DNA of 64,000 nucleotides, from contig CAMXCT020001780.1 in NCBI GenBank assembly GCA_947184155.2, forward strand, positions 1-64,000, written 5' to 3'. Within the stretch, counting starts at the first letter, position 1. Every line of letters starts with the position of its first letter. The notes beneath the pieces were generated by a model. It was not told the origin of the DNA. It saw only the letters and a program-made list of their open reading frames with translations, and did no database searches. Made by a program: the position numbers and the translations under genes. This document shows, piece after piece, positions 27,641 to 57,055 of this stretch. Source of the stretch: Cladocopium goreaui (Eukaryota > Sar > Dinophyceae > Suessiales > Symbiodiniaceae).

Positions 27641-27642
27641 TC

Positions 27643-31278: not shown

Positions 31279-31381
31279 GAAGGACTGGAGAAGAAATGCT
31301 GAGCTGATGTTGAAGCTGAAGAGAAGTCGCTTCATCTGCGAGATCTATGGCATTTTTGAGGATAAGACGTCCTACTACGAA
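31279..31381 (+). CDS. protein kinase exon 1 of 14 (alpha-C to beta-5)
   Basis: The frame reads KDWRRNAELMLKLKRSRFIC and EIYGIFEDKTSYYE. The Glu in AELM sits where kinases carry the alpha-C glutamate that pairs with the ATP-binding lysine, and EIYGIFED fits beta-4. The acceptor is GCGAG|G, with two codon bases carried from an unseen earlier exon. The likely donor is GC (GCTCGT) after GAA. The frame stays open to TAG at 31449, so the exon could be longer. No glycine-rich loop or VAIK lysine precedes it in what I could read. Confidence 0.75.
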
Positions 31382-31446
31382 GCTCGTCTTGAATATCACC
31401 TGGGCTTTGTAGACAGTGGTTGGTCTGTTGGGGTTCAAGATGCTAA

Positions 31447-31560
31447 CTAGGTCAATCGTAGATGGGTACTTTGATCCTTTAGTCTTTTGGTATCAAAGGG
31501 AATATCTACGAACCAGCAAAGAATTTATTTTTTTGCAGGGTATCTAAGATTGGCAATGCT
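31447..31560 (+). repeat. duplicated intron-3'-end-like segment, copy 2
   Basis: AGGTCAATCGTAG, TAGTCTTTTGGTATCAAAGG and TTTTTTTGCAGGGTATCTAA match the segment at 28104-28225. This copy follows kinase exon 1 immediately, and no coding sequence continues after its GCAG. Confidence 0.6.
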
Positions 31561-31665
31561 AAAAGGAATACAATAACTATCTCATCGAAAGTCCATGAGT
31601 GGTTGGTGCTTTCATTTTGTTCAACCATATTTGGAAAGATTATGAAGATCGACTAGTATGACTAG

Positions 31666-31719
31666 CTGGTTGGTGGTTTGGAACTAATATGTTTCAGAGT
31701 GGTTGAAACCACCAACCAG
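31666..31719. mobile_element. MITE family A, minimal copy
   Basis: Only 54 bp: CTGGTTGGTGGTTTGGAAC at the left, GGTTGAAACCACCAACCAG at the right. It is flanked by a direct CTAG at 31662-31665 and 31720-31723. The short core shows that the ends alone define the family. Confidence 0.8.
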
Positions 31720-31774
31720 CTAGTATGCTGATGAAATCAGGGAGTTGTACCCACCCATTAGATGAGCTTCCTGT

Positions 31775-32210
31775 ATGTTTATTCTTAATATCTGTCCCAT
31801 ACCTGCTGCATTTGCGGGACATGGTCCCCAAAAACTTCACTCTCATTACAAGCTGCATCATGCGGTTTTTCTGGAGGGAGTTTGGACGAAATCAGCGCAA
31901 TTAGGCCGCCTTTTGCAGTTGGGGAGCCCTTGCTGCCTGTGTAACAAGGAGTTCAAACGCACCCATAGCTGCAATGTCCTTACACAAGTAGCTTTGTTAT
32001 GGCTCAATGGCCTTGACACAATCGACAGGGGCAGACAAGCACTGATATGCACGGTATGCCTTCAAAGCTTTGACCAAATCTCTGCCTTGCCACACCTACG
32101 TGATAGCCACAATATGCCTGGAACCTGGGAGTGATGCTGCTTGCCGACACTGTGGGGCCACGTTTCAAACCGATGGCCTTCGTCAGCACATCATGAGTGC
32201 CAGATGCCTG
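31775..32210 (+). pseudogene. C2H2/C2HC zinc-finger remnant with frame break
   Basis: A 119-codon frame to TGA at 32134 holds two zinc-finger-like units: CCLCNKEFKRTHSCN and ICTVCLQSFDQISALPHLRD with SH (C-x2-C-x11-H-x4-H). After the stop, a shifted frame (about 32130-32211) reads ACRHCGATFQTDGLRQHIMS then ARC, a C2HC finger ending in TGA. One base shift separates the parts, so this looks like a broken gene. Serial fingers at a protein's end are, as I recall, seen in dinoflagellate non-LTR retroelement ORFs; that origin is only a guess. It lies in a kinase intron. Confidence 0.5.
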
Positions 32211-32654
32211 TGACCAAGGGACCTCAGAAGAGATGGACCAGGATTCTACACAGTGCTTGCGCGATAAGCTTGAAAACCCAACAGTGAACCTAAGTTTCAT
32301 ATCTTCAGAGAACTTACATTCTATCGGAATTTGGGAAGCCCAAGGCTAGCCCGTTTGAATTTCCACCAAGTAACAGCATCTGTTGTGCACATCAGGGATT
32401 GTCTATAGTCTATAGATGTCTATAGCAGCTGGGTTTGCCAAAACATTCATATGCGTGTATACATTTACAGTAGCCCCCAAAAAGATAGAAACGTAGGGCC
32501 TTGCCCTCCTCCATTGTGTTAGGCGGTTTTGCAATTCCCATGAATACTAGTGCGTTATATCCGCCTGATCAACCCAAGAGTTATGCAAGGCAAATGCGCG
32601 TCAACTTGGCTATCTAGGGACCCTCACCTTGCAGGATGCTTCTGAGGGTCCAAT

Positions 32655-32769
32655 CTGGTTGGTGGTTTGGAACCATGAAATTTTTTTTGACTTTCCATTC
32701 AGTTGGGAATGTCATCATCCCAACTGACGAACTCATATTTTTCAGAGGGGTAGGTATACCACCAACCAG
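32655..32769. mobile_element. MITE family A copy
   Basis: CTGGTTGGTGGTTTGGAACC ... ACCACCAACCAG, with the GGGAATGTCATCATCCCAAC hairpin core and TTTTTCAGAGGGGTAGGT. No clear target duplication. Confidence 0.75.
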
Positions 32770-33258
32770 TATACCAACCAGAAACATCTGCCACAGTCAA
32801 CTTAGTGAAATGTATTGTTGGTAGTAACAATACGCCCAGACGATTCGACTTGCCCAACATCACTTTTAGGGTTTTAGAGTTTTTGGGCTTTTAAGTGTTT
32901 AGCATGTTTTTTTTTTGATTTTTGCCATGGTTTCTAGATTCTGATGGTTTAGGGTTTACGGCTTCAGGGTTTGCGGACAGGTCCCCTACCTGTGCTTTTC
33001 AGGAATGCAAGAATGACCCATATACTTTACAGTGTCTTGAGAGTGCCTCCGGCAAAACGATGTGTTTAGTCGTAAGAATACAGGAAGCCCCAAATTTGGA
33101 CACAAAAATCAACATCCACCAATTTATATATAATTATACAATATATACTTACTAGCGCTCATATTATTACATATTTACATCCGGTAAACTCACCACTATT
33201 GCTGGTACCATCCCAAAGAAAATCCAGCCCCACGGGGCACATTCAGCACCATTCTGAG

Positions 33259-33315
33259 GTGAGCATGGAGAAAGTCACAGGACAAGACCTCTATGAGGTG
33301 CTCAGTGTCAGGGAC
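33259..33315 (+). CDS. protein kinase exon 2 (hinge, subdomain V)
   Basis: Acceptor ATTCTGAG|G, then VSMEKVTGQDLYEVLSVRD. MEK.xGxDLYE is the hinge and alpha-D start typical of Ser/Thr kinases. I choose the GTCCCT donor at 33316 because it keeps phase zero with exon 3. A MITE of family E begins about 20 bp after the exon, at the very start of the intron. Confidence 0.75.
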
Positions 33316-33334
33316 GTCCCTAAGTATTGTTAAA

Positions 33335-33452
33335 TGGAGGTTTCCTAAGTCATGGGGGTACCCGTAAATCATCCAGTCATTAGACTCCATCCTTAGTATT
33401 GAATCATATTGAATCTAATGGTATTGTGGATCCCCCATTTTAAGAAAACCCC
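33335..33452. mobile_element. MITE family E copy
   Basis: TGGAGGTTTCCTAAGTCATG at the left and CCATTTTAAGAAAACCCC at the right. It sits just inside the intron after kinase exon 2. Confidence 0.65.
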
Positions 33453-33714
33453 GAAGTTGAGTGACATATGAGTTAGGAACACAATAGCCTGGTTGATTGG
33501 TTAATGTGTTGGGATTCATACTGCCGCTGCTTATTGGGGATGGTGATAACCCGTACTGTACGAGAGAAGCCGTTTTCAACCAACTGCAGTAATTTTTAAT
33601 GGCTCATATGAGCCATGGTCAAATGGTCATCGATCCATCAATTGGAATTTATATTTCTTATCTTACCTTATCTTGTCTTATCTTACTGTCTTACTTGTAT
33701 CTTATCCTTTCTTA

Positions 33715-33965
33715 TCGTATTTTATCTTATCTCTCTATCTCTCTATCTCTCTATCTCTCTCTATCTATCTAATTATCTATCTATCTATCTATCTATCCAT
33801 CCATCCATCCATCCATCCATCTATCTATCTATCTATCTACAGTATCTATCTATCTATCTAGCTCTATCTATCTAGCTCTATCTATTTGAATCTATCTGAA
33901 TCTATTTGAATCTATCTGAATCCATCCATCCATCCATCCATCCATCTATCTACCTATCTATGTAT
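33715..33965. repeat. (CTAT)n microsatellite with ATCC block
   Basis: TCTCTATCTCTC passes into CTATCTATCTAT and CCATCCATCCAT. ORFs over it are artefacts. Confidence 0.9.
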
Positions 33966-34061
33966 ATATATATAAGCAAAGTTTTTTAAGTCATAAAAAA
34001 GGTGCTGATTGGGGGTTCAGCATTTTTGTGGCTTTGCCAATTCTTTGACCATCTTCGACAG

Positions 34062-34103
34062 GTGCTTACTGGGAAAGAACGTTTGTGTGAAGATGATCAG
34101 AAG
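34062..34103 (+). CDS. protein kinase exon 3
   Basis: Acceptor CTTCGACAG|G, 14 codons VLTGKERLCEDDQK, then GACCTG: a GA donor. The acidic CEDDQK leads straight into EVIRQIL of exon 4, as in the L.E..A..I..Q stretch before the alpha-E helix of Ser/Thr kinases. The frame would otherwise run on to a TAA 27 bp later. Confidence 0.65.
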
Positions 34104-34507
34104 GACCTGGGACTGGAAGTGGTCATCCAGGGCTAACGGTGGGAGGATCATTCCGAAAGACTATCACCAGGGCTCTAAGGCATCTCTAAGGCATCTCTGG
34201 AACCATTACCTGGGTTTGTTTAGTCGGTGATTTTGTTATTTTCCCAATGGACAATCCACCATTTGGGGAATCCATAGTGAATATTTTTTATTTTTTGGGG
34301 ACCCCTTAAGCAAATCCAAGATTAGTATGATCATTCTTGGGAATCCATGTTTCAGGTTACATGTTGAATTTAGGAGGTGTAATTTCGCTAAATGTGACGG
34401 GCTCTATGGCTTTGGCTCATGAACAATCATGGGTATTTTTATGGGAAATGATCCCACAGCAGGCTTATTCCAGGTTTGGGACTTAAAACCTATAACCTAT
34501 AACTGGA

Positions 34508-34628
34508 CTGGTTGGTGGTTTGGAACCATGGAATTTTGAATGACTTTCCAATTCAGTTGGGAATGGAATAATCATCCCAACTGTTACTCACTCCGTGATT
34601 TTTCAGAGGGGTTAGCAGCAACCACCAG
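34508..34628. mobile_element. MITE family A, diverged right end
   Basis: CTGGTTGGTGGTTTGGAACC at the left; the right end has decayed to ACCACCAG. The core GGGAATGGAATAATCATCCC and TTTTTCAGAGGGG are kept. Confidence 0.7.
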
Positions 34629-35058
34629 AACCGGTGGAATCTTCGGCTCCGGGATTATCCGAAGATATAGCAGATAGAATGCCAGAATAGAATGTCTGAA
34701 GATTATACCATATATATATATATATTCCAGATGATATGTCAGAAACTATGACAAGTAAGTGTCAGGGTGGGGATCACTCGAAGTAAAGTAATTTGGCACA
34801 ACTAAACCTTCAGATTGAAAAACAAACTGTCCAACAAATTGAGCAAATATCTTTCAAAACCAGCATTTTTTGTGAATTCTGATGACGTCACCACGATGTC
34901 GCCAAGCTGGGGATGGATCCAAACTGCGCGATATCTGATGCAAAAATGCCAATCCTAGCATCCCGAAATTTCCCCCATATGATCCCCCAAATGAAGAGCT
35001 CTGGAGGTATTTACTATTAGCTGGATGGGATTGTTGAATAGGGTATTTGGCTTTTGAT

Positions 35059-35251
35059 ATGGAGGTTTCCTAAGATGCAAGGCTACCCCAAATCAGCCAA
35101 GTCAGCCAGGACCATTTTAGTATACCAGGATCGCCCATTTTAGGAAACCCCATGGGTCCATAGGTGGCAATGATTCACCGTTTTGACTCGGAATCCCCAA
35201 TTCCTTTGAAACCCTTGCTGGCTTGGGGTACCCCCAGGTTAGGAAACCTCC
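35059..35251. mobile_element. MITE family E, compound copy
   Basis: ATGGAGGTTTCCTAAGATGC at the left and GGTTAGGAAACCTCCA at the right, with an internal CCATTTTAGGAAACCCC end at about 35131-35147. It may be two overlapping insertions. Confidence 0.6.
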
Positions 35252-35324
35252 AAATACAACATTAATCCCCTTGGTAGTAGGTGATTGGGGAATATGAGCC
35301 ATTGTACACACATATTAAATCATA

Positions 35325-35326
35325 TT

Positions 35327-35358
<32 letters not shown>

Positions 35359-35520
35359 ACCCATAATATATATATAGTTCAATATGTATATATACAATAT
35401 ATATACATGTGTATATATATATAGTTCAATATATATCTAACATGTACATATATATATATATTATATATATATAACCCGCATATAATATAATATATATATA
35501 TATATAACCCCTATATATAT
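35325..35520. repeat. TATA microsatellite
   Basis: Nearly uninterrupted TA dinucleotides with AACCC and CATG interruptions, ending about 50 bp before kinase exon 4's pyrimidine tract. Confidence 0.9.
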
Positions 35521-35576
35521 TAACCCATGTTTCTGGGGTCTGTCCAACCTTTGCCCACTTTGAATTTTCATCGCAG

Positions 35577-35635
35577 GAAGTCATCCGACAGATCCTCTGT
35601 GGCATTCGGGACCTTCACTCCTCTTGCATCCACAG
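35577..35635 (+). CDS. protein kinase exon 4 (alpha-E, subdomain VIa)
   Basis: Acceptor TCATCGCAG|G, then EVIRQILCGIRDLHSSCIHR up to the second base of the Arg codon, and a GTGCAG donor. I-x-x-L-H-x-x-x-I-H-R is the alpha-E helix leading to the catalytic loop. The split codon AG|G is completed by exon 5 at 37632, giving HRD. Confidence 0.9.
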
Positions 35636-35945
35636 GTGCAGCATGGGAAGCCTAAGAAAACATGCAGAATTTAGATGATTTTGATGGGTGATAATGGGTT
35701 AATACTGGGCTATTAACGGGTTAATAGTGGGTTCATGATGAGTGATGAATGGATGAATAGTGAATTCATAACGAGTTAATCATATTTCAAATATTGGGAT
35801 ATATGATATATATATATATATCTATCTATATACATATGTATGTATATAATTCATTACACTGCATATAACTACGAATATGATAGTCGGCATTGTCCAGTCC
35901 AATGGGGCACCCACGGCGGGCAAAGGTCCGAATGCCAGATAAAAC

Positions 35946-36087
35946 CAATGGGAGATCTTCAGGATCCTGAAATGGAGGTACTGTACCATATAAGGCCATA
36001 TTTTGTGGGGATATTCCCTTACATAGCCCTTACATAGGCCTTTATATGGTAGGTACCTCCATTTTAGGATCCTGAAATTCCCGTTGA
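35946..36087. mobile_element. MITE family C copy
   Basis: GATCTTCAGGATCCTGAAAT at the left and TTAGGATCCTGAAATTCCCG at the right; the GGTACTGTACC and ATTTTGTGGGGATATTCCC core blocks match the copies at 39134 and 46642. Flanked by TAAAA on both sides. Confidence 0.75.
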
Positions 36088-36265
36088 TAAAAATGTCGGA
36101 TAGAATGCCAGAAAAATTATAGATCAGAAGTAATGTCAGAAGTAATGTCAGTTGGTGGTGGTGGGGGTTGATACTGAGTGAATAATGGGTTGTCAATGGG
36201 TTATTTTTATGGGGTAATCAGAAGGATTTATTAGGATGTATCTACTGATATATTTGTATTGTATA

Positions 36266-36370
36266 TACCCTCTGGTAAATTAACATAGACCCTGAACATT
36301 ACCAATTTTTGGTGGAAACTAATCTTCCAACCCCTATCTGCCAGGGTCTATGTTAATTTACTGGAGGGTA
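36266..36370. mobile_element. MITE family B, subfamily 2
   Basis: TACCCTCTGGTAAATTAACA at the left and TTAATTTACTGGAGGGTA at the right. The core GGAAACTAATCTTCCAACCC is shared with 53982-54088 but not with the other family B copies. CATAGACCCTG and CAGGGTCTATG extend the inverted ends. Confidence 0.8.
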
Positions 36371-36404
36371 AATAGTTGGGATTTTCCAACAATGGTACCC
36401 GGCG

Positions 36405-36515
36405 AAAGTCCCCGGCTGATTTTGACATCACAGTGACTTGGTCCCAACGTCACGCACTTGGGACCAGCCTTGCGATCGCTGGAGCCCATACAGCGTTTGA
36501 GCGTATGTGGCAATG
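36405..36515 (+). CDS. coding-like island in kinase intron
   Basis: A plus frame reads PADFDITVTWSQRHALGTSL and AIAGAHTAFERMWQ to TGA near 36515. Codon bias is coding-like and a splice site near 36400 is possible. The kinase needs nothing between exons 4 and 5, so this is either an alternative exon, a trapped fragment or another gene. Confidence 0.35.
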
Positions 36516-36517
36516 AG

Positions 36518-36650
36518 TCAAAAGCTTGGTAGCTTGATAGCTAAGTTGGTGCAAATAACTCCAATAACTATATATGGTTTATGGTACTTATAACTATAGT
36601 TACTGGGCTTTATAAACCAACTTATAAATCTTATAACTGGTGGGCCTCAC
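36518..36650. mobile_element. MITE family F copy
   Basis: GCTAAGTTGGTGCAAATAAC at the left and GGCTTTATAAACCAACTTAT near the right, ending GGTGGGCCTCAC. Confidence 0.55.
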
Positions 36651-36675
36651 ATCTTAGGTACCCCCAAATGGCTGG

Positions 36676-36788
36676 CTGGTTGGTGGTTGAAATATGTTTT
36701 TCATTGTTTTTTCCCATCATATTGTGACTCTCACAATCCCAACTGACGAACTCAGATTTTTCAGAGGGGTAGGTCAACCACCAACCAG
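36676..36788. mobile_element. MITE family A copy with CTGG duplication
   Basis: CTGGTTGGTGGTTGAAATAT ... CCACCAACCAG, flanked on both sides by CTGG (36672-36675 and 36789-36792), a clear 4-bp target duplication. The core has the TCCCAACTGACGAACTCAGA block. Confidence 0.8.
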
Positions 36789-36956
36789 CTGGCTTATGGA
36801 TGATTATTCTCCAAAATATGGTAGCAGGTTTTGACCCATCCCCATGTGAGGATGCCAATGAAATATGTCGGATGTCAGGAATTTCATGTCACTTTGGGGG
36901 CATCACCTGAAGGGAGTGTTCTATTCAAAAAAAGACGCAACATAATATTGTTGCAT

Positions 36957-37012
36957 GGGATAATGATGGGATAATGATGGGATAATGATGGGATAATGAT
37001 GGGATAATGATG
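36957..37012. repeat. 11-bp tandem repeat, 5 copies
   Basis: GGGATAATGAT repeated five times without change. Confidence 0.9.
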
Positions 37013-37078
37013 GTTAGTACTAGGAAGATATGGTTAAATAGAACCATTAATAACCAATAAAGATGTAGTTAGTAATGG

Positions 37079-37226
37079 TTACTTGGTGGTTCATCTCACG
37101 AATCCTAAGTAGGTTTTAACCCTGCTGATTTCACGATAAGTACGCTACTGTATTCATCCACTGAAAACACTGGGGTGAACTAACCTACTGTAGCTACTTA
37201 CTAGGTGGGATGAGCCACCAAGTAAC
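37079..37226. mobile_element. MITE family D copy
   Basis: GTTACTTGGTGGTTCATCTC at the left and TGGGATGAGCCACCAAGTAA at the right, with GGTGAACTAACCTACT inside. Confidence 0.7.
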
Positions 37227-37445
37227 CACAATATTGAGCCACCAGGTACTTGTAGCCATTATCAACCAAGTATTAATCCAATTATCCCAGATACACCTTT
37301 TACACCATCTATAAATCCTCATCATTAAACCCCATTCATAGCCTATGAAATCCCGAGGCCATTGACTATCTGCAGTTGACAGCTACTGGCTTACAACACC
37401 ATTTAACTGAGATGTAACTATATCCATTATCATCCCATGTATAAC

Positions 37446-37549
37446 CTGGTTGGTGGTTTTGGAACATGAATTTTATGAATTTCCATTCAGTTGGGAATCA
37501 TGATCCCAACTGGACTTTCAGATTTTTCAGAGGGGTCAACCACCAACCA
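37446..37549. mobile_element. MITE family A copy
   Basis: CTGGTTGGTGGTTTTGGAAC ... CAACCACCAACCAG. The right end is about 80 bp upstream of kinase exon 5. Confidence 0.8.
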
Positions 37550-37631
37550 GTGTGCCATGGCACTGCCACTCTGGAACAACTCACCAACTTTTTGTCCGTT
37601 GCTTTCAACGAATTTCTGGAATTTCTGGCAG

Positions 37632-37665
37632 GGACATCAAGCTGGAGAACATCATGTTGGCGCGG
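37632..37665 (+). CDS. protein kinase exon 5 (catalytic loop, VIb)
   Basis: Acceptor TTTCTGGCAG|G. The first base completes Arg from exon 4, then DIKLENIMLAR. Joined, this gives HRDIKLEN: catalytic Asp, the phosphate-contacting Lys and the Mg-binding Asn are all present, so activity is expected as far as this loop goes. The donor may be GTGCGC at 37666, or a GC site at 37681 that would add VRRGDIF. The frame otherwise stops at 37703. Confidence 0.9.
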
Positions 37666-38038
37666 GTGCGCAGGGGCGACATTTTTGCCCCTCGTCGTTG
37701 ACTTGACTCGTCGCAACACGATGTTTCAAAGGCGGCCTGTTTTTTCACCAGCAGGTTGAAATTTCAACACTTACGAAGTAGCTTATGAGCCTGATTATAA
37801 GATGTTATAAGTGGGATAAGTAGGGTGAATCCACTTATAACTAAGGTTATAACCTACTTAGGATTCGTGGGATGAGCCACCAAGTAATATGCCAGAGTTG
37901 ACCATCACATATGACAGTCAATGATTGGATTAGTTTGTTAAGAGTAAACTTGCAGCAAACGGTGTTTCGTTCTACCCCAAAGATTTTCGATTCCTGCGAA
38001 CTGGCCTTTGATGTCTGGGAATTCCATTCCTAATGACA

Positions 38039-38150
38039 TACCCTCCGGTAAACTGTCCCATAACCATGGAAAATCACCATGCTATTAATGGGTAAATCAA
38101 CTATTTCTATGGCCATTTTCAATAGCAAACTGTGAGTTTACCAGAGGGTA
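38039..38150. mobile_element. MITE family B copy
   Basis: TACCCTCCGGTAAACTGTCC at the left and GTGAGTTTACCAGAGGGTA at the right; core GGGTAAATCAACTATTTCTA. Confidence 0.8.
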
Positions 38151-38862
38151 AACAGAAGCAAAAGAAGTTGGAGAAACGTTTTGGAACGTATCAGGAGCCT
38201 CCACTGGCCGGATTCTGCACATGTGGGACGTTGAGTTGGATATAACCATGAAGAAAACGGTGATAGTTGTGCCGGCAAAATGGAGGTTTAACCAGCAGAG
38301 TGCTTTGACCACTCGCATTTTCGAGAATTTAATACTTGAATTTTTATGTAAACAGACCTGAGAGGGCAATCTAGTACAGTTCCTAATTTACAAGGCGAGG
38401 ACCCGGAGTCGTAAGTTGGTTTATAACCACCATTAACTATAGTATTATAGTTACATCTACCATAAACCATAGATAACTTTAGATAACCTAGTTATTTGCA
38501 CATCCTTAGCTATCGTGTGGGCATGTTGAGGAACCATTTCTTCCTAAGTCCCTGATGCTTTTGGTACCGGGTCAGAAGTTGGTCGTAGGCAATGGTTGCC
38601 AATCAATTGCCTGTCTTTATGTTCGTTCAAGCGTTCAAAAAACAACACCTTTTCTCCAAAAAGTAAAAAATAGTTGTTGTTTCTGTGTAAAATATGTTTC
38701 CAAAAAGCATGTTTGGTATGTCCAACCAAATTTCATTACATGGAACAAACCACACGTTCGTTGGATTCAACCCCCCACTGCAATGCTAAGAGTTCTCTCC
38801 TGGATGTGCAGCTGAGATAGGATCACGAAGTTTATAGCGGATATTATAACCGTAAGGCAATA

Positions 38863-38975
38863 TACCCTCTGTTAAACTAACAGTTTGCTATTGAAAATGG
38901 CCATAGAAACAGTTGATTTACCCATTAACAGCATGGTGATTTTTCATAGTTATGTAAACGTGTACCAGAGGGAAA
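38863..38975. mobile_element. MITE family B copy abutting family E
   Basis: TACCCTCTGTTAAACTAACA at the left and TGTACCAGAGGG at the right; seven bases later a family E element begins. Confidence 0.7.
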
Positions 38976-38981
38976 CCTACA

Positions 38982-39100
38982 TGGAGGTTTCCTAAGTCAT
39001 GGGCTAATGGGGGTACCCCCAGTTATCATCCATTTTTCTTGGGGATTTTCCCGTAAATCATCCAGCTATTGGGAGTACCACCATTTTAGGAAACCCCCAT
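38982..39100. mobile_element. MITE family E copy
   Basis: TGGAGGTTTCCTAAGTCATG at the left and CCATTTTAGGAAACCCCCA at the right, with GGGGGTACCCCCAG. Confidence 0.75.
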
Positions 39101-39133
39101 ACCATATATACCCTTCTATAGATCAACATAGAC

Positions 39134-39306
39134 CAATGGCCATTTCAGGATCCTAGATTGGAGATACCTACCATATGTAAGGCCTATGTAAGGCCTATGT
39201 AAGGCCTATGTAAGGCCTATGTAAGGCCTATGTAAGGGAATATCCCCACAAAATATGGCATTATATGGTACAGTACCTCCATTTCAGGATCCTGAAATGA
39301 CCATTG
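39134..39306. mobile_element. MITE family C with internal 11-bp expansion
   Basis: CAATGGCCATTTCAGGATCC at the left, CAGGATCCTGAAATGACCAT at the right. In the core, GTAAGGCCTAT is repeated about six times (39176-39236), where other copies have it once or twice, so the element has grown by internal slippage. Confidence 0.8.
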
Positions 39307-39414
39307 ATGTGGGAAAACCACCATCAATGTAGATCATTGTCCGAATGGGACACCTTTTACATGATTTTACCACATCTATATCAACGTTTACTGTACCCCA
39401 TTTATAACCCATAC

Positions 39415-39639: not shown

Positions 39640-39803
39640 GTATATATATATAATATACCAGTGAAATCCAGTGAATCTCAATTCAAAATCACCTAACTCC
39701 TCCTCACTCACCAGGAAATCCCTAAGTTCCATCAACAAAATCCTGGGGTATGATATGGTTAGTATATCCACGCTCCGAGAGATTCCTTGGATGTACCGCC
39801 GAG

Positions 39804-39857
39804 ATCAAAATTATCGACTTCGACACCATTCAGCCGCTTTCGAAAGCTGGACACATT
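39804..39857 (+). CDS. protein kinase exon 6 (subdomain VII, IDFD)
   Basis: The frame reads IKIIDFDTIQPLSKAGHI before a GTGAGC donor. The Mg-binding Asp is present, but the usual DFG glycine is replaced by Asp (DFD). The acceptor is either GCCGAG|A at 39803 or slightly upstream; the latter would add a few residues. The next exon continues GTDQY in phase, as the activation loop should. Confidence 0.85.
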
Positions 39858-43295: not shown

Positions 43296-43334
43296 GTCGG
43301 CACCGATCAGTACATTGCTCCAGAAGCTTATGAA
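43296..43334 (+). CDS. protein kinase exon 7 (subdomain VIII, APE)
   Basis: Acceptor CACCTCAG|G, then VGTDQYIAPEAYE. The T-x-x-Y-x-A-P-E signature ends the activation segment. The donor is GC (GCTGGG); read-through would stop at TAG 18 bp later. The preceding exon ends AGHI, so the joined loop is AGHIVGTDQYIAPE. Confidence 0.9.
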
Positions 43335-43846: not shown

Positions 43847-43941
43847 CTGGTTGGTGGTTTGGAACATGTTTTTCCATATATTGGGAATAATAATCCCAAC
43901 TGACTTTCATATTATTCAGAAGGGTTGAAACCACCAACCAG
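43847..43941. mobile_element. MITE family A copy with AAAA duplication
   Basis: CTGGTTGGTGGTTTGGAACA ... GAAACCACCAACCAG, flanked by AAAA on each side. Confidence 0.8.
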
Positions 43942-44838: not shown

Positions 44839-44886
44839 GAAGGCATTTTCACCACCGCATCGGATCTCTTCGCAGTGGGCGTCACC
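44839..44886 (+). CDS. protein kinase exon 8 (subdomain IX)
   Basis: Acceptor GTTCCGAG|G, then EGIFTTASDLFAVGVT. S-D-L-F-A-V-G is the invariant Asp-x-x-x-x-Gly of the alpha-F helix. The donor is taken as GC (GCGTGA), so that GVT joins LYLEL of exon 9; without splicing, TGA follows one codon later. Confidence 0.85.
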
Positions 44887-45084
44887 GCGTGATCCATGGG
44901 CCGAACGGTGGAGAGCCGACCAAGTGAGATAGAATTTCAACGGCAAATGACGTTAAAAAAAGGAATAAAAAAGGAATAATGTGGTGTTTTATCCCACAAT
45001 ATAGGGATTATAGGATGATTAATGGGATTATATAGGATCATATAGAGTTTATATTAGGGATTATATGGTGATTAATGGAATGAT

Positions 45085-46792: not shown

Positions 46793-47182
46793 TCACAAAG
46801 ACCTTGGTCGCTGAGATAGTTTCCCGCTGCTAGGTACATTCTTTGCAGTCGAAAGTTTCCTTTTCAGTGCCGCAGCGGCATTTTGTGGGGCCGGGCCACG
46901 GATGAAGAATGAGCACAACCACCATTGATGGCACTGTTGATGGCACTGTTTTTCAGAAACTGTATTCTTCCTGCGGATGATCAAAGGTACATGGAGGGTC
47001 TAGGTATATATTATATATATATATTATATTTATATGTGATTATGTATATATATAATTGATTAATTATAGATGTTCTTATATATATATATATATACAAGTG
47101 TGATTATGTGTACATATATATATATATTATATAATATACTTAATGATAGGTGTTCTTTCTTATCTACTTCACAATTTTCAAG

Positions 47183-47228: not shown

Positions 47229-47480
47229 GCCATGACGATCCGGGGCACCACCCCAGGGGACCTTCCACTGCCTCAATAGTATCAAGAATGAACCCAATGA
47301 ACCCATCATACATAATACACTGGTTATGGGAATGGATGATTATTGATAGCAATTGATGGACAATAATGGCTATATTTACTGCTTGGTGGTTTGGAAATTG
47401 GAAATATGGCTTTTATTTTCCATAATATATGGAATTTAACCAACAAAAATGGTGATATAATATATATATATATATGTATA

Positions 47481-47580
47481 TGGTTGGTGGTTTGGAACAT
47501 TTTTTCTTTTTCCATTCAGGTGGGAATAATCATCCCAACTGACTTTTATATTGTTCAGAGGGGTTGAAACCACCAACCAG
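47481..47580. mobile_element. MITE family A copy
   Basis: TGGTTGGTGGTTTGGAACAT ... GAAACCACCAACCAG, 80 bp upstream of kinase exon 10. Confidence 0.75.
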
Positions 47581-47660: not shown

Positions 47661-47734
47661 CTTTTCCAGCAAAAACCGTATCTCACAGCATCTTGAGGCA
47701 CAAGATGTTTGATGACAAGCCCGGGGAAAACTAC
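47661..47734 (+). CDS. protein kinase exon 10
   Basis: Acceptor TATATACAG|C. After two codon bases it reads FPAKTVSHSILRHKMFDDKP and GENY, then a GTCCAC donor. I recall F.DDKPGEN-V-GSPKM as a recurring stretch in alveolate kinases after subdomain X; exons 10 and 11 together reproduce it. Confidence 0.8.
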
Positions 47735-47896
47735 GTCCACGCCTTAGCTGACAAATTGATACGGCATCAGGGCTAGCCGGGAGCATTGCCATTTTGGGAG
47801 ACTTGCCATTTGAACAAGACAACGAGACTTGATTGTTTCAGAAATCAAAGTTATCCAAAATTAGAGTCTTATTTTTGTTGGCCCATCATTTGTTTT

Positions 47897-49155: not shown

Positions 49156-50313
49156 TGGGTTTAGCCCACGGCCCAAATCATTGGAGTGGGTTTTAGGATG
49201 TTTTAGGAGGTTTTAGGGATCCCCCATTTTAAGAAACCCCGTCATAGAATCGTATGGACACAAGGCAATAGTTTCGTTGGGTGAGCTCAAATTGCAGATT
49301 TACTGCAATGTATGACACTTTTAATGCGACAAATGATGAAAAGGAATTGGATTTTGGGGTAGCCAAATTCTAGACCAACCGACAAAAAAATGAATGTTGG
49401 GAAATAGCCTTTATATGTGCACAGGTCAAAAGAAAACAGTGTTTCACATAGCTTCCAGATGCATTTGTCGTATGCGGTTCAAGCAACGGACATTCCCATG
49501 TAAAGATTAGATCAGGAGCCTCGCTAGTGAGAACGGGGGTAGTTGGGGCCGGGTTGGAATATATATGAATATATGCCAGTAAAGGTTACACTAGGAGCAT
49601 ACATGTTTTTTAGTGACATCCGTTGGATATGTGTAGAAAACATACACCATGCGTGGATGATGAAACACCATCTGTAGAAAATATGCACCATGGAACGGGG
49701 CAACCAAATGGGTTATATGGCTAAACAAAGTCTATAGACGTCTATAGAATTGCATGGGGGACTGACCAATATTGAGGGTTTTGAAGGCTTGACCAACAAC
49801 CAAATGTCCAGTTTTCCAAGAAAAGCAATAAATCTGCTTTTTGTGGTGCTTTCTAGATATAAATTAACTCTATTGACTAGTTCGATATCAAAGAACCAAG
49901 CTAGTGACTGTAGTTATTTCATCCGTAACTTCGCTAGAAAGCACGCGCATCAATCCTCCAAGAGCTGATTGGTTAAAAAAACGAAGCAACCACACAATAA
50001 CTGGCCGTTTACAAATTATAATAACTGGTTATTTCTATGGGATTATACAGGGCTTGGTAAATGTCCCATGGCTTCCATGGCTTGGAGATTTGTTTCACAT
50101 CACTTGAAAATGGAGCCCAGTTGGAGGTTATATTACTATATATCCCCAGTTGGATGATGTTCAATTAGGACATTTACCAACCCCTGTCATACATTCCATA
50201 AATATCCATAAATGGGCTTTGGTTAGTGCTTATGACTGGTAAAGGCCAGGGGGCCGAAAAAAGGCATCGCCATGATCTCTGCGATGATCTCCGCGATGTT
50301 TGCTCCGAGAAAG

Positions 50314-50368
50314 GCAGACCTCAATTGGGAGAAAGACTTCAAAGACAACTCCCTCGCCTGTGACTTAT
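50314..50368 (+). CDS. protein kinase exon 12
   Basis: Acceptor CGAGAAAG|G, then ADLNWEKDFKDNSLACDL and one base, before a GTGCCT donor. The W....F...S..A.DL pattern is the run-up to subdomain XI. Read-through stops at TGA 24 bp later. Confidence 0.75.
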
Positions 50369-50715
50369 GTGCCTCGCCACGATGACGGAAAAACGTGACG
50401 TTGATGGGATGATATGATTTGGAATTTCACGATGAAATATAGGAGCTTGAGCTTTTTCTGGAAAAGTCACCATATAATGCCATATTGGTTATACTAATGG
50501 TGAATCTAATATGGTTATATAATAGTCACCATCCATATAAAAGTCACCATATTAATCACTTGATACACGTGATAATAGTGATGAATCATGGTTGGTCGAT
50601 GAATGTAGCTGATGGGGATTCCCATACTGGATGATGATGGTGGTGATGATGATGGTTAATCATGGTTAATACGTGTTAATATATGTTAATATTGGATAAA
50701 TAGTGGCTTAATAAT

Positions 50716-50830
50716 CTGGTTGGTGGTTTGGAACGTGTTTTATTTTCCATCCAGTTCCATTCAGTTGGGAATTTCATCATCCCAACTGAAGAACTCATAT
50801 TTTTCAGAGGGTGGGTCAACCACCAACCAG
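50716..50830. mobile_element. MITE family A copy with TAAT duplication
   Basis: CTGGTTGGTGGTTTGGAACG ... CAACCACCAACCAG, flanked by TAAT at 50712-50715 and 50831-50834. Confidence 0.85.
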
Positions 50831-50943
50831 TAATGGTTTATATCGGATATTTCATGGGCTTTACCCTCCGGCAATTTTTCACGTGGCTGGGAAATCCTCA
50901 ACAAATAGGGGATTTTTTTTTCGCTGAGAAAATCATCAATGAA

Positions 50944-51060
50944 TACCCTCTGGTAAACATACAAAAAACGATGGAAAATCATCATTTTTAACGGGTAAAT
51001 CGGGTAAATCAACTATTTCTATGGCAATTTTCAATAGCTATGTTAGTTTACCAGAGGGTA
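50944..51060. mobile_element. MITE family B copy
   Basis: TACCCTCTGGTAAACATACA at the left and TTAGTTTACCAGAGGGTA at the right. An internal GGGTAAATC is doubled. Confidence 0.8.
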
Positions 51061-51280
51061 GATGATTTTCCAGGAAGCGTTTGAGTACTGGAGGGTAATA
51101 AGATGAGTCATGTGGTAAGCCCAATGCCATAAACCATTCCATTCGTCAACCATGACTGGGGGGTCATATCGTGGGGTATACAGTATATGTCATGGACCTC
51201 CAAATTATTTGTAAGCAACAAGAAGGAGTTTTAATTGCGAAGACCGTTCATGTTTTGAAGGGAACCCTCACGACATTTAT

Positions 51281-52180
51281 TTTGCGAGTTCGCGAAAATA
51301 GATTGTTTATTCGCGAAAGTTTCGCGAAAGTTGGATATTATGAATCATTATTATTGTATACGTTACAGCTTGTTAAGGGCTACCACCTCCACACGGCTGT
51401 TTGCAACGTGCATTTCTTATGCCTCGCCAAGTGTCGACCATGGATATTCGCTCGGCTGTGCCGCGGAATTTGGACTCACTGTTGCTGCCCACGGTGTCTC
51501 AGGGTGAACTTACCTTTTCTGACGAGCACAGCATTAGGTTGGCTCATGGTGACTGTCTTGTGATCACACCGGTCCTTGAGCCACGCCCCTCAAACTCAAA
51601 CCTGATCGAGGATGAGCCGCCTGATCCTCTTGTAGCAGATGACAGCACTCTGCTCCAGTTGCAAGCTGTCCAAGTGGTTACACAGAAAACTGAAGGGTAC
51701 CGCACATTTACCTTTCCCTTCATAGGTAGCAGCCAAATACCATGGTCTTGAAGCACATCCTTGGACCTGCTGCTGGTACTGCTTAACTGAAGCTTCAAGA
51801 AACAAGCTCCAAATGCACCACCAAGTTTCCAAAAGTGAGGCTTTGCGAGAGCCAAGCGCCAGGGGTATTTTCGCGAAAGTTCCGCCAAAGTTCTGCGAAG
51901 GAGCGGGCGAAAGTCAAAGTGCATTTTGAAGGGAGTGGCCCAGTAAGCCTTGCAAAAAAAAAACCAAATCAGCAACAACCTGTCCTAAGAAGGGGATTCT
52001 GTCATGCTAGTTGCATGTTTGCAAGGTTTTGAAGAAGTTGTCCGTGATAATTTGGTGTGATTTTGCGCAGGTGATGAATGAATCTTCATAAGAGGAATTG
52101 TTGCTCAACATGACAGCATGGGTTCCGTAAAAGATAGACATGGAGGTGGCGAATCCGCGAAAGTAATTTCGTTTCGCGAA
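51281..52180. promoter_or_regulatory. TTTCGCGAAA palindrome cluster
   Basis: TTCGCGAAA or TTTCGCGAA cores occur near 51290, 51310, 51320, 51868, 52155 and 52172, bordering the ORF at 51434-51751. The palindrome resembles E2F-type sites (TTTCGCGC), but a regulatory role is only a possibility; it may equally be a repeat unit. Confidence 0.3.
51434..51751 (+). CDS. ORF in kinase intron, unknown protein
   Basis: From an ATG at 51434 the frame reads MDIRSAVPRNLDSLLLPTVS, then SDEHSIRLAHGDCLVITPVL and an acidic LIEDEPPDPLVADDSTLLQL, ending TGA at 51751. The earlier start at 51401 is less coding-like. Both sides carry TTTCGCGAAA palindromes. It lies in the intron between kinase exons 12 and 13 on the same strand. 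No family recognised; a retroelement or nested gene is possible. Confidence 0.45.
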   Translation, partial: STMDIRSAVPRNLDSLLLPTVSQGELTFSDEHSIRLAHGDCLVITPVLEPRPSNSNLIEDEPPDPLVADDSTLLQLQAVQVVTQKTEGYRTFTFPFIGSSQIPWS

Positions 52181-52352
52181 GAACGGCCGTTCCCAGATAA
52201 AAAAAAATTGATCAACAACCATATGTATGTATACACTGGAAATAGGTTGAGCCAGGGCCGTTTATTCTACATGCCGAATATTGCATAGGGTTGTTCAGGA
52301 TCATCTCGGTAATGTTGAAATTCAACGAGACGATTTCAAGAGTCACAGTTAC

Positions 52353-52500
52353 AGCTCGTGGCCCCCTAGCTAAGTTAGTTTATAATTTCAATAACTATGG
52401 TCTATGATGTTTAAAACGTCTTATAACATGTTATAACTGTAGTTATTGATAATTCATGGGGTTTACAAACCAACTTATAACTTGTTGGGCCCACATTGTA
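52353..52500. mobile_element. MITE family F copy
   Basis: GTGGCCCCCTAGCTAAGTTA at the left; GGGTTTACAAACCAACTTAT and TTGGGCCCACATTGTA at the right. Confidence 0.65.
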
Positions 52501-52795
52501 CCTTCCAGTAAGTTAAAAGTTTGCGCGCTGGGTTTGATATCCCAGTTAGTTTGATGATTTAACGATTTACCCATCAAACATGTGGGTTTCCATAGTCAGT
52601 CAATTTACCAGGGGGGACTTCCAGCTCATGAAACTGAAAACCAGTTGGACAAACTCTCCACTCGTGGTCATTTTCCTGCAAGGTGGTGCCCTGTAGCTAG
52701 TTAGGTTGGTTTACAACATTTTACAACTAGGGTTTTACGCTGGTAGATGTATCCCTGGTTACTAGGTATATAGGGGTGTTGCAAACCAACATGTA

Positions 52796-53130
52796 ATGGA
52801 GGCCGGAACACCAACTTGTGAGATGGCAAGTCAAATCTTCGCCACCAGCTTTTCATGGGCCGGCCAGTTGATGAAATTTCAAGATGAGACGGCCGTGAAC
52901 AGGGACCAAAAATGGGTCATTTCCATACAATTTTTGGGGCGAAATCTATTTGTTAGTATCTGTCCTTCTTCAAGCACCAAAAAAAAACAGTTCTTCAGAG
53001 AATTGGGTTGGACATATGGCGGATCTTTTGCTGGCGACAGTCACGACATCATCGCTGGTCTAGAAGAATCCCCTTTCCATCCGTATACCTGGAGTCCAAA
53101 CGCTAGGGGCAAATGTAGAATAAAAAACAA
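52796..53130 (+). CDS. ORF in kinase intron, unknown protein
   Basis: An ATG-started frame (140 codons to 53218) reads EMASQIFATSFSWAGQLMKF, QDETAVNRDQKWV and later GGSFAGDSHDIIAGLEESPF. The last 30 codons look non-coding. Codon use is only moderately supportive. Confidence 0.3.
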
Positions 53131-53981
53131 TAACATAAAACGAAAACACAGTTTACCATATCCAGGTTCAGAAATCATTGTTTTTCTTTATGTAGGTTCT
53201 TTAAAAAAGGAGTTGTGAACATGTCGGTGTTTCTGGAAAATTGGGTTACCCCATTTTACAAGTGGTTTCTCTAATAAACAGAAAACCATTGGAGTGGATG
53301 ATAACTTGTGCGACGCTAGTGTTAAATATCCAGTTGTTTGTTCGTTGAATAGTTAATTTTCAATTTGCATTAAATTGTTTGGGGGTCTGGGGGTGTATCC
53401 AACCTCTTGCATCCAGATGACCATGTTTAGATCAGCATTTTTTTTCTGGATGCGCCATACTCGACAATGCCAAATGCTGCGTCGTTGAGCCATCATTGGT
53501 GGCAACTGGATCATGGTAATCATAGCATGGTAGTCAATTTGTGAATCATGAATTCTTTGAGGAAAATCATGTTTTTGCATTACCATGCATTTTTCCTTGT
53601 ACTGAGAATGGGATGGGTGGAGGATCACCTGCTCAAAAAAAAACTAATTTCGGTTTGTTTGAATATGGCACACCACAACCCCAAAGTCTATTTGTTTAGA
53701 ACACCACTAGATGATCTTTTTTTGATTCAAAACTATAGATATAATTTGGATCGTATAATATCTCATTTATCCCACTGATATTCACCAGAAATAGCAATAC
53801 CCTGATGGGTTTCAAACATTTTGGTTTGCACCTTTGCTATTGATGGTAACAACCCCAGTTTGTTTTGTTAAAACACACATTAAGTAAAACACACATAAGA
53901 ATTATGTCCTCATTGACCCATAGAAACATCGTTCATAAACACATGTAGATCATGATTATATCAACTATATTCTATATCAAC

Positions 53982-54088
53982 TACCCTCCGGTAAATTGAC
54001 ATAGACCCTGAAAATAGCCTAGTTTTAATGGAAACTAATCTTCCAACCCCGATGACTGCCAGGGTCTATGTTAATTTACTGGAGGGTA
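53982..54088. mobile_element. MITE family B, subfamily 2
   Basis: TACCCTCCGGTAAATTGACA at the left, TTAATTTACTGGAGGGTA at the right, core GGAAACTAATCTTCCAACCC; close match to 36266-36370. Confidence 0.8.
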
Positions 54089-54385
54089 TATTAGTTATCA
54101 TTTAACACATCCATACTGTCGGGTTCAGTCGCCATCGGCGACGTAAATTCACTCCGTTTGCTACATATGTTTGCTGAGGTAAACAGCTTATGAGCAACGA
54201 TCCGAGTGAGCGGCCCAGTGTCGTGGCTTAGATGGTGTATGGACCAACTATTGATTACTGCTGGTTGGTGGTTTGGAACATGGCTTTTATTTTCCATAAT
54301 ATGTGGGATTTAACCAACAAATATATATATATATATGGTCAATAGCTATATTTGTTTACCAGAGGGGAAATGGAGGTTTCCTAAT

Positions 54386-54489
54386 CTGGTTGGTGGTTTG
54401 GAACATGGCTTTTATTTTCCATAATATACGGGATAATCCTTCCCATTGACGAACTCATATTTTTCAGAGGGGTTGAAACCACCAACCAG
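54386..54489. mobile_element. MITE family A inserted in a family E end
   Basis: CTGGTTGGTGGTTTGGAACA ... GAAACCACCAACCAG with TAAT duplicated on both sides. The left TAAT belongs to GGAGGTTTCCTAAT, the start of a family E element, so A landed inside E. Confidence 0.85.
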
Positions 54490-54513
54490 TAATAGTAATG
54501 TATACTTAATGTG

Positions 54514-54659
54514 TACTTGGTGGTGAACTACCCACGAATCCTTTAGGTAGGTTGTATCATGTTGTATCCCTGGTGATTTCAGTGGGATAAGTAGGGTTAA
54601 TAAAATGAAATAACTAGGGTGAACTAACCTACTTACTAAGTGGGATGAGCCACCAAGTA
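54514..54659. mobile_element. MITE family D copy
   Basis: TACTTGGTGGTGAACTACCC at the left, TGGGATGAGCCACCAAGTA at the right, with GGTGATTTCAGTGGGATAAG and GGTGAACTAACCTACT inside. Confidence 0.75.
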
Positions 54660-54886
54660 GCACTGACATACTTGGTACTATTAACAATTATTAACATCTG
54701 TCAAATTTATCAAACATCAAAGGGTACTGTTCACAGAGTGGGTAATTACTATTAACATTTATCAATGTTAACAGACTGGGTAGTGTCTTGCAGAGAGGAG
54801 TCCTCATTGGCGATGGGGTACTCGTGAGCCGAAATGGGTGCTATTGATAAATCAGTGGACTCCCGGTTAGTACCTGGTTCGTCAAG

Positions 54887-55005
54887 TACCCTCTGGTAAT
54901 GACTAACAGTTTGCGACATAGAAAATGGCCCATAGAAATAGTTGGTTTACCAAACATAAAGATGGTGATTTTCCAGTTCGCTTTTTGTATGTTTACCAGA
55001 GGGTA
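54887..55005. mobile_element. MITE family B copy
   Basis: TACCCTCTGGTAATGACTAA at the left, TATGTTTACCAGAGGGTA at the right; core CCCATAGAAATAGTTGGTTT. Confidence 0.8.
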
Positions 55006-55351
55006 AATGAGATTATAATCCACTGATATTCGATAACCCACTGAAAACTTCCCATCACCGTTGTTCACCAATTACTAAGTCGGATGACCTTTGCTGTTGG
55101 ATGTGGGCGTTGGTTAACTGTATGTTCACACTAGTTATATTCCAGTTATCACATATCTACCAGAAACCCAAGAGTTCTACACTCAGTACCAGCGACATCC
55201 AGTTCTAACTGTTAGGGGCACCACCGAAGGGTCCCATGGTTCCATTGGATTGGTTTGTTGAGACAAAATACAACTGGTTGCTGGTTTGGAACATGGCTGG
55301 AATATTTTCCATAATATATGGGATTTAAGCAACAAAAAATGTGATATATAT

Positions 55352-55460
55352 ATATGATTGGTTGTTTGGAACATGATTTTTTTTCCATATATATATATTG
55401 GGAATAATAACCCCAACTGACTTTAATGTTTTTCAGAGGGGTAGGTCAACCACCAACCAG
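55352..55460. mobile_element. MITE family A, damaged left end
   Basis: GATTGGTTGTTTGGAACATG at the left, GGTCAACCACCAACCAG at the right. An A-like left half (CTGGTTGCTGGTTTGGAACA) lies 80 bp upstream. Confidence 0.65.
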
Positions 55461-55593
55461 AGATGGTTTTGCGGAAGTTCGAGGAAAAATCTATTGGAAT
55501 GGAATGGTTTTGTTGGGAACATCTGGAGTTCTTTTGTTGGAAACTCACATCATTTCAGGGAAAATCGAAGAAGGAAACCCAGTTCTTCCCCAG

Positions 55594-55640
55594 ATATGGC
55601 TTTAAGCCTCGATTTCCGCGCCAATGCTCGGAAGGATTTA
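55594..55640 (+). CDS. protein kinase exon 13 (toward subdomain XI)
   Basis: Acceptor TTCCCCAG|A. Two bases complete a Tyr codon, then MALSLDFRANARKDL. With exon 12 this gives A-C-D-L-Y-M-A-L-S-L-D...R, the ARDLxxxLLxxDPxxR element that holds the conserved subdomain XI Arg. I place a GC donor at 55641; without it the frame reads AQILQAILKGSL to TAG at 55679, which could be an alternative end. Confidence 0.7.
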
Positions 55641-55749
55641 GCCCAAATACTTCAAGCCATTTTGAAAGGGAGTCTATAGAAATCATTGGATCTGGAGGTA
55701 TATACATCCAATATTTTGATGTAAATGAAGGGATTTACTTATAGGACTT

Positions 55750-56945
55750 TGGATAGATGGGGATATAGCCATCAGTCGTTAGTCAGAATAAATCATAACA
55801 CATGGGGAACTATGGGTATGTGTCTATAGAATTGTGCCTAGTTTTATCTTTGATATCCAATGATGATATGTGGGTAGGAAACGTGGGAGGTTGCCCGTAC
55901 TGCGTTTGTGTTTGGTCAATTCCCATCTTCCAGGAACATCCCCTCTATTGACGACCGTAATGAATGTTTCCTAATATGTTTAGTCCGAGACATGGTTCAG
56001 GGGAAGATTCATGTGATTCATGTGACAAAAACCATCCCCAAGTTTGAGGTTCATTATTGGCTCTACTTCTGTTTGGGATAATGGAACGTGACGCCCAAAT
56101 GGTTTTGGTGAATGGTATGGTTTATTATTGGGTTTACCACATTACCACGGAACAACTTCCGTACTTTGCAGGGTCAAACTAGACACTGTATAGTGTATTT
56201 TTTGATTTTGTTCCGGAAGAATCATCCAAATAATGAGCCAGCGGCATCCAGACTATCTGTTTAGACTATCTGCTTGGATGCGCATCCCATTTAGAAAGTG
56301 AACAATAACCATGTTGTATCCCAGTTAGATTAGTTGATTAGTGGTATTCATCGGCAGTTGTATAATATAATATGAACGATGTATGGCTTAGAACCAACTT
56401 ACGAGTACTGGAACCCGCACATATGCCGAACTATAGTGCCCCTCCCCGCATCCTATCTGCTTACTTCAATAATGACATATAATTGAAGTCAAACATTAAA
56501 TGAATTAGATACACATTATATATATACACACTGTATCTATCTATCTATATATATATATATATATTCATACACTGTATGTATGTATATATATATATATATT
56601 GAAAATCCATCATTTCACTCAAACGTGGTTGGAACATCCCCGTGGCCTAAATGGCGGTTTTTCAATTCGAGTCACTCAACGATCCGTCAGAGTTTACCAT
56701 CTGTCAGACAATTCATAGTGTTGATGAATTTCTAGGAGTTATTGTTATGATACCTGGTTGATTAATGTTGATTAATGTTTTTTTGTATGATATGATATGT
56801 ATATATAATTATGTCTATATATATACACGCCATAACTTGTGAATACTTATTGTAGCCAGTATTATTAGATCTTACAACTCCGTGATATGAAATTTATATG
56901 TGAAATTTACATATCGCCCTGGCTTTAACCCACCTCATGGCTTTC
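55750..56945. other. intron or spacer, no exon seen
   Basis: TA microsatellites lie near 56515-56605 and 56790-56825. A half family G element is at 56095-56150. Otherwise featureless. Confidence 0.45.
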
Positions 56946-56950
56946 CGCAG

Positions 56951-57055
56951 GTGCTGAAGAAGCATTGGACCATCCATGGCTTGATCAAGGTCCGGCTTTT
57001 GGAAAAGCTTTGTCCATGTTTTGAGCCGTCACCCGACGGAGTCGCGTCACGGTGA
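56951..57055 (+). CDS. protein kinase last exon (HW motif)
   Basis: Acceptor GCTTTCCGCAG|G, then VLKKHWTIHGLIKVRLLEKL and CPCFEPSPDGVASR to TGA at 57055. V-L-x-x-H-W corresponds to the AL.HPW end of CAMK-type domains, and joins RKDL of exon 13 in phase. The tail after HW has a CPC motif and no visible EF-hand, so this is not obviously a calcium-dependent kinase. Confidence 0.7.
   Translation: MLKKHWTIHGLIKVRLLEKLCPCFEPSPDGVASR

Follow-up and report, generated by a model that had tools for sequence, protein, structure and literature searches.

A putative kinase gene in about fourteen tiny exons, with a one-way MITE family in its introns, in the dinoflagellate Cladocopium goreaui

Results

A kinase domain spread over short exons

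The stretch of DNA analysed here (the window) comprises the first 64 kb of contig C1780 (CAMXCT020001780.1, 693,948 bases) of the Cladocopium goreaui assembly GCA_947184155.2, which holds 1.166 Gb in 6202 contigs. On its plus strand, from 31283 to 56988, lie 14 predicted exons with homology to protein kinases, which join into 232 codons without a stop. They amount to 696 nt, or 2.7% of the 25,706 nt of the locus. The introns between them contain miniature inverted-repeat transposable elements (MITEs), one family of which, M1, is found only on the sense strand, and a second, collinear copy of the locus lies on contig C301.

The exons were examined by spliced alignment, in which raw DNA is aligned to a profile and introns are permitted at a fixed cost. 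The profile was made from 43 matches to kinase open reading frames (ORFs) of the same genome, with certain loci entered twice. In the list below, exons that this alignment finds without guidance are called blind.

29979-30028, plus: E0, tentative, beta2-beta3, LSGDKVANGQQVVLKAG, possible VVLK lysine; identical in C301; unproven
31283-31378 (start maybe 31279), plus: E1, alpha-C/beta4/beta5, donor GA; blind at lower intron costs; two synonymous differences from C301
33259-33312, plus: E2, hinge VSMEKVTGQDLYEVLSVR, donor GA; blind at lower intron costs
34062-34103, plus: E3, VLTGKERLCEDDQK, donor GA; blind at lower intron costs
35577-35635, plus: E4, EVIRQILCGIRDLHSSCIHR, donor GT; blind (start there 35574)
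37632-37665, plus: E5, (R)DIKLENIMLAR, donor GT; blind; HRDIKLEN crosses the E4/E5 junction
39780-39857, plus: E6, RFLGCTAEIKIIDFDTIQPLSKAGHI, contains IDFDT, donor GT; blind
43296-43334, plus: E7, VGTDQYIAPEAYE, contains GTDQYIAPEAYE, donor GC; blind
44839-44888, plus: E8, EGIFTTASDLFAVGVT(A), contains SDLFAVG, donor GT; blind
46834-46866, plus: E9, YILCSRKFPF, donor GT; blind in C1780, not in the C301 run
47689-47746, plus: E10, (H)ILRHKMFDDKPGENYVHAL, donor GC, end uncertain; by eye; one replacement difference from C301
48621-48645, plus: E11, MHEIANRV(H), donor GT, weakest exon; by eye; blind only at the lowest intron cost
50318-50368, plus: E12, LNWEKDFKDNSLACDL(C), donor GT; by eye; blind only at the lowest cost; aligns with IDWSHPTFREIPDSKDFC of the single-ORF kinase L065
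54179-54217, plus: E13, KQLMSNDPSERP(S), donor GT; blind
56951-56988, plus: E14, AEEALDHPWLDQ, end uncertain by a base; blind

Further exons probably follow 3' of E14. A blind choice at 51891-52000 and small ones that appear at low intron cost were rejected from the gene model.

The joined translation matches the Pfam Pkinase profile (PF00069) over positions 47-263 of 263, with E=1.5e-39 and 136.5 bits against a cut-off of 31.7. This is the search that the sequence-only reading, which had proposed a kinase domain split over same-strand exons at this locus, had named as its check. The best PDB chains are 4ieb (CDPK1) and 3dfa, both calcium/calmodulin-dependent kinases, and DAPK1, with E down to 5.9e-22, which makes calcium/calmodulin-type kinases, here CDPK1 and DAPK1, the predicted nearest relatives of known structure. 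The CDPK1 of 4ieb we take to be apicomplexan. In comparison with PF00069 and these three proteins, the segments HRDIKxEN, IIDFD, GTxxYIAPE, SDLFAVGV and AEEALDHPW are alike, and their order and spacing are kept. The C1780 kinase differs in being divided over about 14 exons and in having DFD for DFG: the joined frame keeps the HRDIKLEN loop, IDFD, where D replaces the DFG glycine, and APE.

Most of the motifs given in the sequence-only reading stand, namely HRDIKLEN across E4/E5, IDFDT in E6, GTDQYIAPEAYE in E7 and SDLFAVG in E8. Its LYxELxxGxxP does not, as the frame over E8/E9 reads AYILCSRKFPF, and its HW belongs to another frame, the one that continues the kinase reading AEEALDHPWLDQ in E14. 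The sizes it gave needed some adjustment: exons are 25-96 nt rather than 34-105, and the total is 696 nt (not about 800) or 2.7% of the locus (not about 3%). The domain it described is present from position 47 on, while positions 1-46 fall outside its span and have one tentative upstream exon.

A comparison of the exons in the window with the protein typed from them is circular; only the matches on C301 and to unrelated kinases count. The kinase L065 (C5982:614407-615789), a single ORF, aligns with residues 9-230 of the 232 (79.7 bits, 27% identity, 31 gap positions). Since L065 aligns across the junctions of the C1780 kinase, it supports the joined frame. It carries LIDFD and RSATAEEALRHPW, and its C-terminal motifs are as in the C1780 kinase. 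L065 is possibly a retroposed relative.

Blind spliced alignment of the profile to C1780 28-60 kb scores 53.6 bits on the plus strand, against 54.4 for the C301 copy and 24.9 on the reverse strand. Forty dinucleotide shuffles reach a mean of 20.8 bits (standard deviation 2.2, maximum 29.3), and masking the 14 exons lowers the score to 19.6. Genomic stretches without a known kinase score 18.4-39.6 bits, and the two top paths among them are unlike a kinase. Three loci found by kinase search (L078-L080), each aligned on one strand, served as positive controls.

The missing ends

Profile positions 1-46 (beta1-beta3) are absent from 31283-56988. In a search for the upstream N-lobe by spliced alignment, a glycine loop was not found and one tentative exon, E0, was obtained. 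E0 is picked at one of three intron costs in C1780, at all three in C301, and at three of four in a further run. At cost 11 the best path through it is better by 7.3 bits, compared with at most 2.3 in six shuffled upstream sequences; at lower cost other paths win.

Downstream, no EF-hand pattern was matched in the plus-strand frames of either copy (37 kb on C1780, 28 kb on C301). This search has little power, as the shuffles also give none, motifs split by introns would escape it, and 7600 of 94,000 C1780 bases are N.

Three stretches in viral contigs fit a pattern for relatives, none of which was confirmed. Contig C1 (7,377,000 bases) has many long intronless kinase ORFs and looks like a bacterial genome within the assembly.

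Introns and splice sites

The 13 introns are 749-3810 nt long, with a mean of 1924 nt. Their predicted donors are GT in eight cases, GA in three and GC in two; all 13 acceptors are AG, which the model requires. An AG/G junction, which the sequence-only reading had taken as the general type, is found at nine of the 13 acceptors but not at the remaining four. The dinoflagellate spliced leader has 172 exact matches genome-wide, against none for a reversed control, and together with the GC and GA donors this supports a dinoflagellate gene. Sequence that recurs within C1780:1-94 kb makes up 24.5% of the kinase span and none of the 696 exon bases. This share is a lower bound for repeats, and calling the introns MITE-filled was somewhat strong.

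In published tables, the mean gene length is 24.5 kb in P. cordatum, 26.2 kb in A. gibbosum and 16.2 kb in P. glacialis (PMC10666404 Table 2), and the mean intron is 4709, 3732 and 1408 bp, respectively, with GT, GC and GA donors; introns of Symbiodiniaceae are shorter, at 486-869 (PMC10666404). In three other spliced kinases of the same genome, known as partial models, exon length is 26-163 nt and intron length 60-1924 nt. Given these published tables and these kinases, the layout of the C1780 gene is normal for the group rather than exceptional. It agrees with the averages of the three species for genes (16-26 kb) and introns (1.4-4.7 kb), and has the three donor types and AGG acceptors in common with them; it differs in a mean exon of 50 nt versus 106-240 and in AG/G at nine of 13 junctions versus 80-97% (PMC10666404). 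Compared with the three partial kinases, its exons are on average shorter and its introns longer.

A second copy of the gene

The collinear copy lies at C301:129442-145675 on the minus strand, with 94-98% identity in aligned columns and insertions and deletions of several kb between the copies. The two could be haplotypes or the products of a segmental duplication. All 14 exons are present in both copies and align without gaps; three of the 696 bases differ (0.43%), two of them synonymous and one a replacement. In the introns 646 of 23619 aligned columns differ (2.74%), and 885 intron bases of C1780 stand opposite a gap. The difference between exons and introns is significant (Fisher p 1.3e-5). 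Because the divergence of the exons is far below that of the introns, it suggests purifying selection on the kinase sequence.

Eleven differences of at least 40 bases between the copies were listed and seven inspected, and none of these is a clean insertion of M1. Differences of 153 bp at 37350 and of 123 bp at 54290 cross MITE copies and resemble deletion or recombination. Upstream of the kinase, two segments of C1780 have no collinear counterpart in C301: 4417-22326 (about 18 kb) and 24872-28088 (3.2 kb). Both contain tandem arrays, with units of for instance 127-381 and 299-324 bp.

M1 copies within the introns

M1 elements are 95-115 bp long, have the terminal inverted repeat (TIR) CTGGTTGGTGG and occur in high copy number, as MITEs do. 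One M1 word occurs 13 times in the 13 kinase introns. Nine clean copies are listed here, with the partial ones.

32655-32769, plus: M1, sense, intron 1; TIR CTGGTTGGTGG
36676-36788, plus: M1, sense, intron 4; end repeat CTGG
37446-37550, plus: M1, sense, intron 4; partly absent in C301
39536-39639, plus: M1, sense, intron 5
43847-43941, plus: M1, sense, intron 7; end repeat AAAA
44396-44505, plus: M1, sense, intron 7
47480-47580, plus: M1, sense, intron 9
50716-50830, plus: M1, sense, intron 12; end repeat TAAT
54386-54489, plus: M1, sense, intron 13; end repeat TAAT
31668, 34510, 47381, 54263, 55276, 55356: partial M1 copies

An exact match of the 4 bp flanking the two ends is seen in 11 of 30 clean copies, a raw number that includes orthologous copies and certain low-complexity ones and has no random control.

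In a BLAST search with the whole-element consensus, M1 is sense to the gene in all 20 copies in C1780:1-94 kb and in all 24 in C301:90-180 kb, where the total of 44 to 0 counts orthologous copies of the duplicates twice. Counts with the left-end word are identical (20:0 and 24:0). The right-end word gives 16:1 and 16:0 when one mismatch is permitted, and 37 sense to 4 antisense with two; on inspection, the antisense match at 17085 proved to be no M1 copy. Other MITE families of these two regions are mostly mixed, with sense to antisense counts of 8:5 for M2, 2:1 for M3, 4:3 for M4, 7:5 for M5 and 8:9 for M6, and 0:5 for the rare variant M2b. Thus the sense-only M1 is the unusual feature of the locus, while its exon and intron layout is fairly normal.

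Among 21 non-orthologous copies, CTGAC is present in 12 and TTTTTCAG in 13. In 12 of the 21, CTGAC is followed by a T-rich stretch and CAG within about 20 nt; read on the sense strand, this arrangement looks like a branch point with a 3' splice site (a count without a control). GTAGGT is found in five of the 21. In the copy at 36676-36788 it stands four bases after TTTTTCAG, so that an acceptor-like and then a donor-like site are nearly adjacent, as in recursive splice points.

M1 strand in the rest of the genome

The 22-base left word of M1 has 10,042 exact matches genome-wide, against none for a reversed control; a 43-base M1 word matched only itself. Strand was tallied over the 100 places listed first, out of 10,042 for the left word, 450 for the right word and 513 for M2, the control family. 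Neighbouring left words on one contig, more than 1 kb apart, are on the same strand in 79 of 81 pairs. The right-end word shows 29 of 31 such pairs, and M2 shows 19 of 36.

Further, we compared the strand with gene-strand markers (kinases and spliced leaders) on other contigs. M1 agrees in 16 of 16 cases (8 contigs) and M2 in 10 of 15 (7 contigs); the marker tables behind these counts were typed by hand, markers are up to hundreds of kb away, the one on C5981 is a weak kinase match (E 0.39), and a spliced-leader marker may be a leader gene and not an mRNA relic. C459, which has leaders on both strands, was dropped, and the markers of C769 disagree; neither contig has a listed M1 or M2.

Genes of dinoflagellates form one-way clusters (PMC7557087), and in the listed places M1 holds to a single strand along a contig. 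Most simply read, the strand of M1 follows transcription, a link that would then extend over the genome. In paper listings and in passages of PMC9860276, no earlier report of an orientation or strand bias in MITEs or introners was found; Roy et al. 2023, the main paper on dinoflagellate introners, may describe it.

Discussion

What kind of gene is it?

We consider it highly probable, from the sequence features described above, that the locus is a nuclear dinoflagellate gene for a Ser/Thr-type kinase, very probably functional, in about 14 tiny exons with introns swollen by MITEs. The kinase domain would be split into exons of 25-96 nt by spliceosomal introns that begin with GT, GC or GA and end in AG. 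Elements of several MITE families, inserted one within another, and other repeats probably helped to expand these introns to 0.7-3.8 kb. Splicing at the predicted junctions and enzyme activity would be expected of such a gene, and the introns are presumably older than the MITEs inside them.

Several observations weigh against this interpretation. The 39.6 bits reached in real DNA without a kinase make the margin smaller than it is over shuffles, and E10-E12 as well as several boundaries were set by eye, with E10 never recovered blind. The case for purifying selection depends on three differences; gene conversion could likewise lower the divergence of exons, and stretches flanking several exons are also identical between the copies. 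With the glycine loop not found and the catalytic lysine tentative, an inactive kinase is possible.

It should be considered whether the exons could be something else altogether. Short exons, initially picked by eye out of 26 kb, might be a chance assembly of motifs. A generic kinase profile used blind, however, recovers eight of the 14 when the intron cost is strictest and 11 or 12 at lower costs, the controls lie well below, and the score collapses to 19.6 bits when the exons are masked. At the level of the kinase domain chance is therefore refuted, and we give it practically no weight. A decaying pseudogene that still bears kinase exons is easier to imagine, as a duplicate leaves one copy free to decay and the N-lobe exons are not firmly located. 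It is nevertheless quite improbable: the frame of 232 codons has no stop, no exon base stands opposite a gap compared with 885 intron bases, divergence is 0.43% versus 2.74%, and HRD, the DFD aspartate and APE are intact in both copies. Nor do we think it at all likely that the 13 introns are introners, with MITE ends as splice sites and insertion as the origin of the introns. Introners are frequent in dinoflagellates (PMC11453091, PMC10666404) and are recognised by an inverted repeat of 8-20 nt near both intron ends (PMC10666404, PMC7789003) and a direct repeat of 3-5 nt at the ends. A direct repeat of 3-4 nt is found at the junctions of three of the 13 introns (3, 4 and 13; a raw count without a control). 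Like the introners of dinoflagellates (Amoebophrya, PMC7789003; Roy et al. 2023 via PMC11453091), M1 has TIRs, end repeats in some copies (the 4-bp matches in 11 of 30), one orientation and an acceptor-like stretch. Yet none of the 13 introns has an inverted repeat of at least 8 nt near both ends, the longest being 6 nt, and random pairs give 1.75%. Further, the nine clean M1 copies are internal, at least 81 nt from the next exon and at least 168 nt from the previous one; they lie within longer introns and are not introns themselves, unlike in Amoebophrya (PMC7789003). The introns could still be old introners that have lost their ends.

Why does M1 go one way?

For the strand of M1 we tentatively favour strand-specific, transcription-coupled insertion, with selective removal of antisense copies as a close second. 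In the former, M1 would be locked by insertion during or through transcription, for example at R-loops or another single-strand intermediate, and not by selection. The 44:0 count over locus and duplicate, the same-strand neighbours for both M1 words and the mixed strands of most other MITEs in the same DNA all point in this direction, whereas 4-bp end repeats are as expected from ordinary cut-and-paste, which requires no strand choice. It is also quite possible that M1 inserts both ways and that antisense copies are purged for disturbing RNA processing, by premature 3' ends or false splice sites. Contigs that hold one strand with rare switches are what one would expect if tolerance depended on the direction of one-way gene arrays. 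Against such purging, 0 antisense copies of 44 demands very strong selection even deep inside introns, and the acceptor-like stretch sits on the sense strand, seemingly the riskier orientation. Finally, M1 could follow the replication strand, with gene direction only correlated, as forks might happen to run the same way as one-way gene arrays; we find this unlikely, and the majority of the other MITE families do not behave so.

Returning to a coupling of M1 with transcription, a more far-reaching and rather doubtful idea is that M1 is a DNA transposon with transcription-tied insertion, or that its branch-point and acceptor stretch is used by the spliceosome. If this were true, M1 would be a recursive splice point, by which long dinoflagellate introns are removed piecewise, and a reservoir of new introns upon landing in exons. 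Its strand along contigs would be a readout of transcription direction from sequence alone.

What the locus means for dinoflagellate genes

The kinase gene shows that ordinary gene finding can fail in dinoflagellates, as all 14 exons are below 100 nt while the protein is conserved. The strand-locked M1 opens two questions to testing: by what means introns in one-way gene arrays become longer, and if strand choice is possible for a cut-and-paste MITE. In this genome, M1 may also offer a cheap readout of gene direction from raw sequence.

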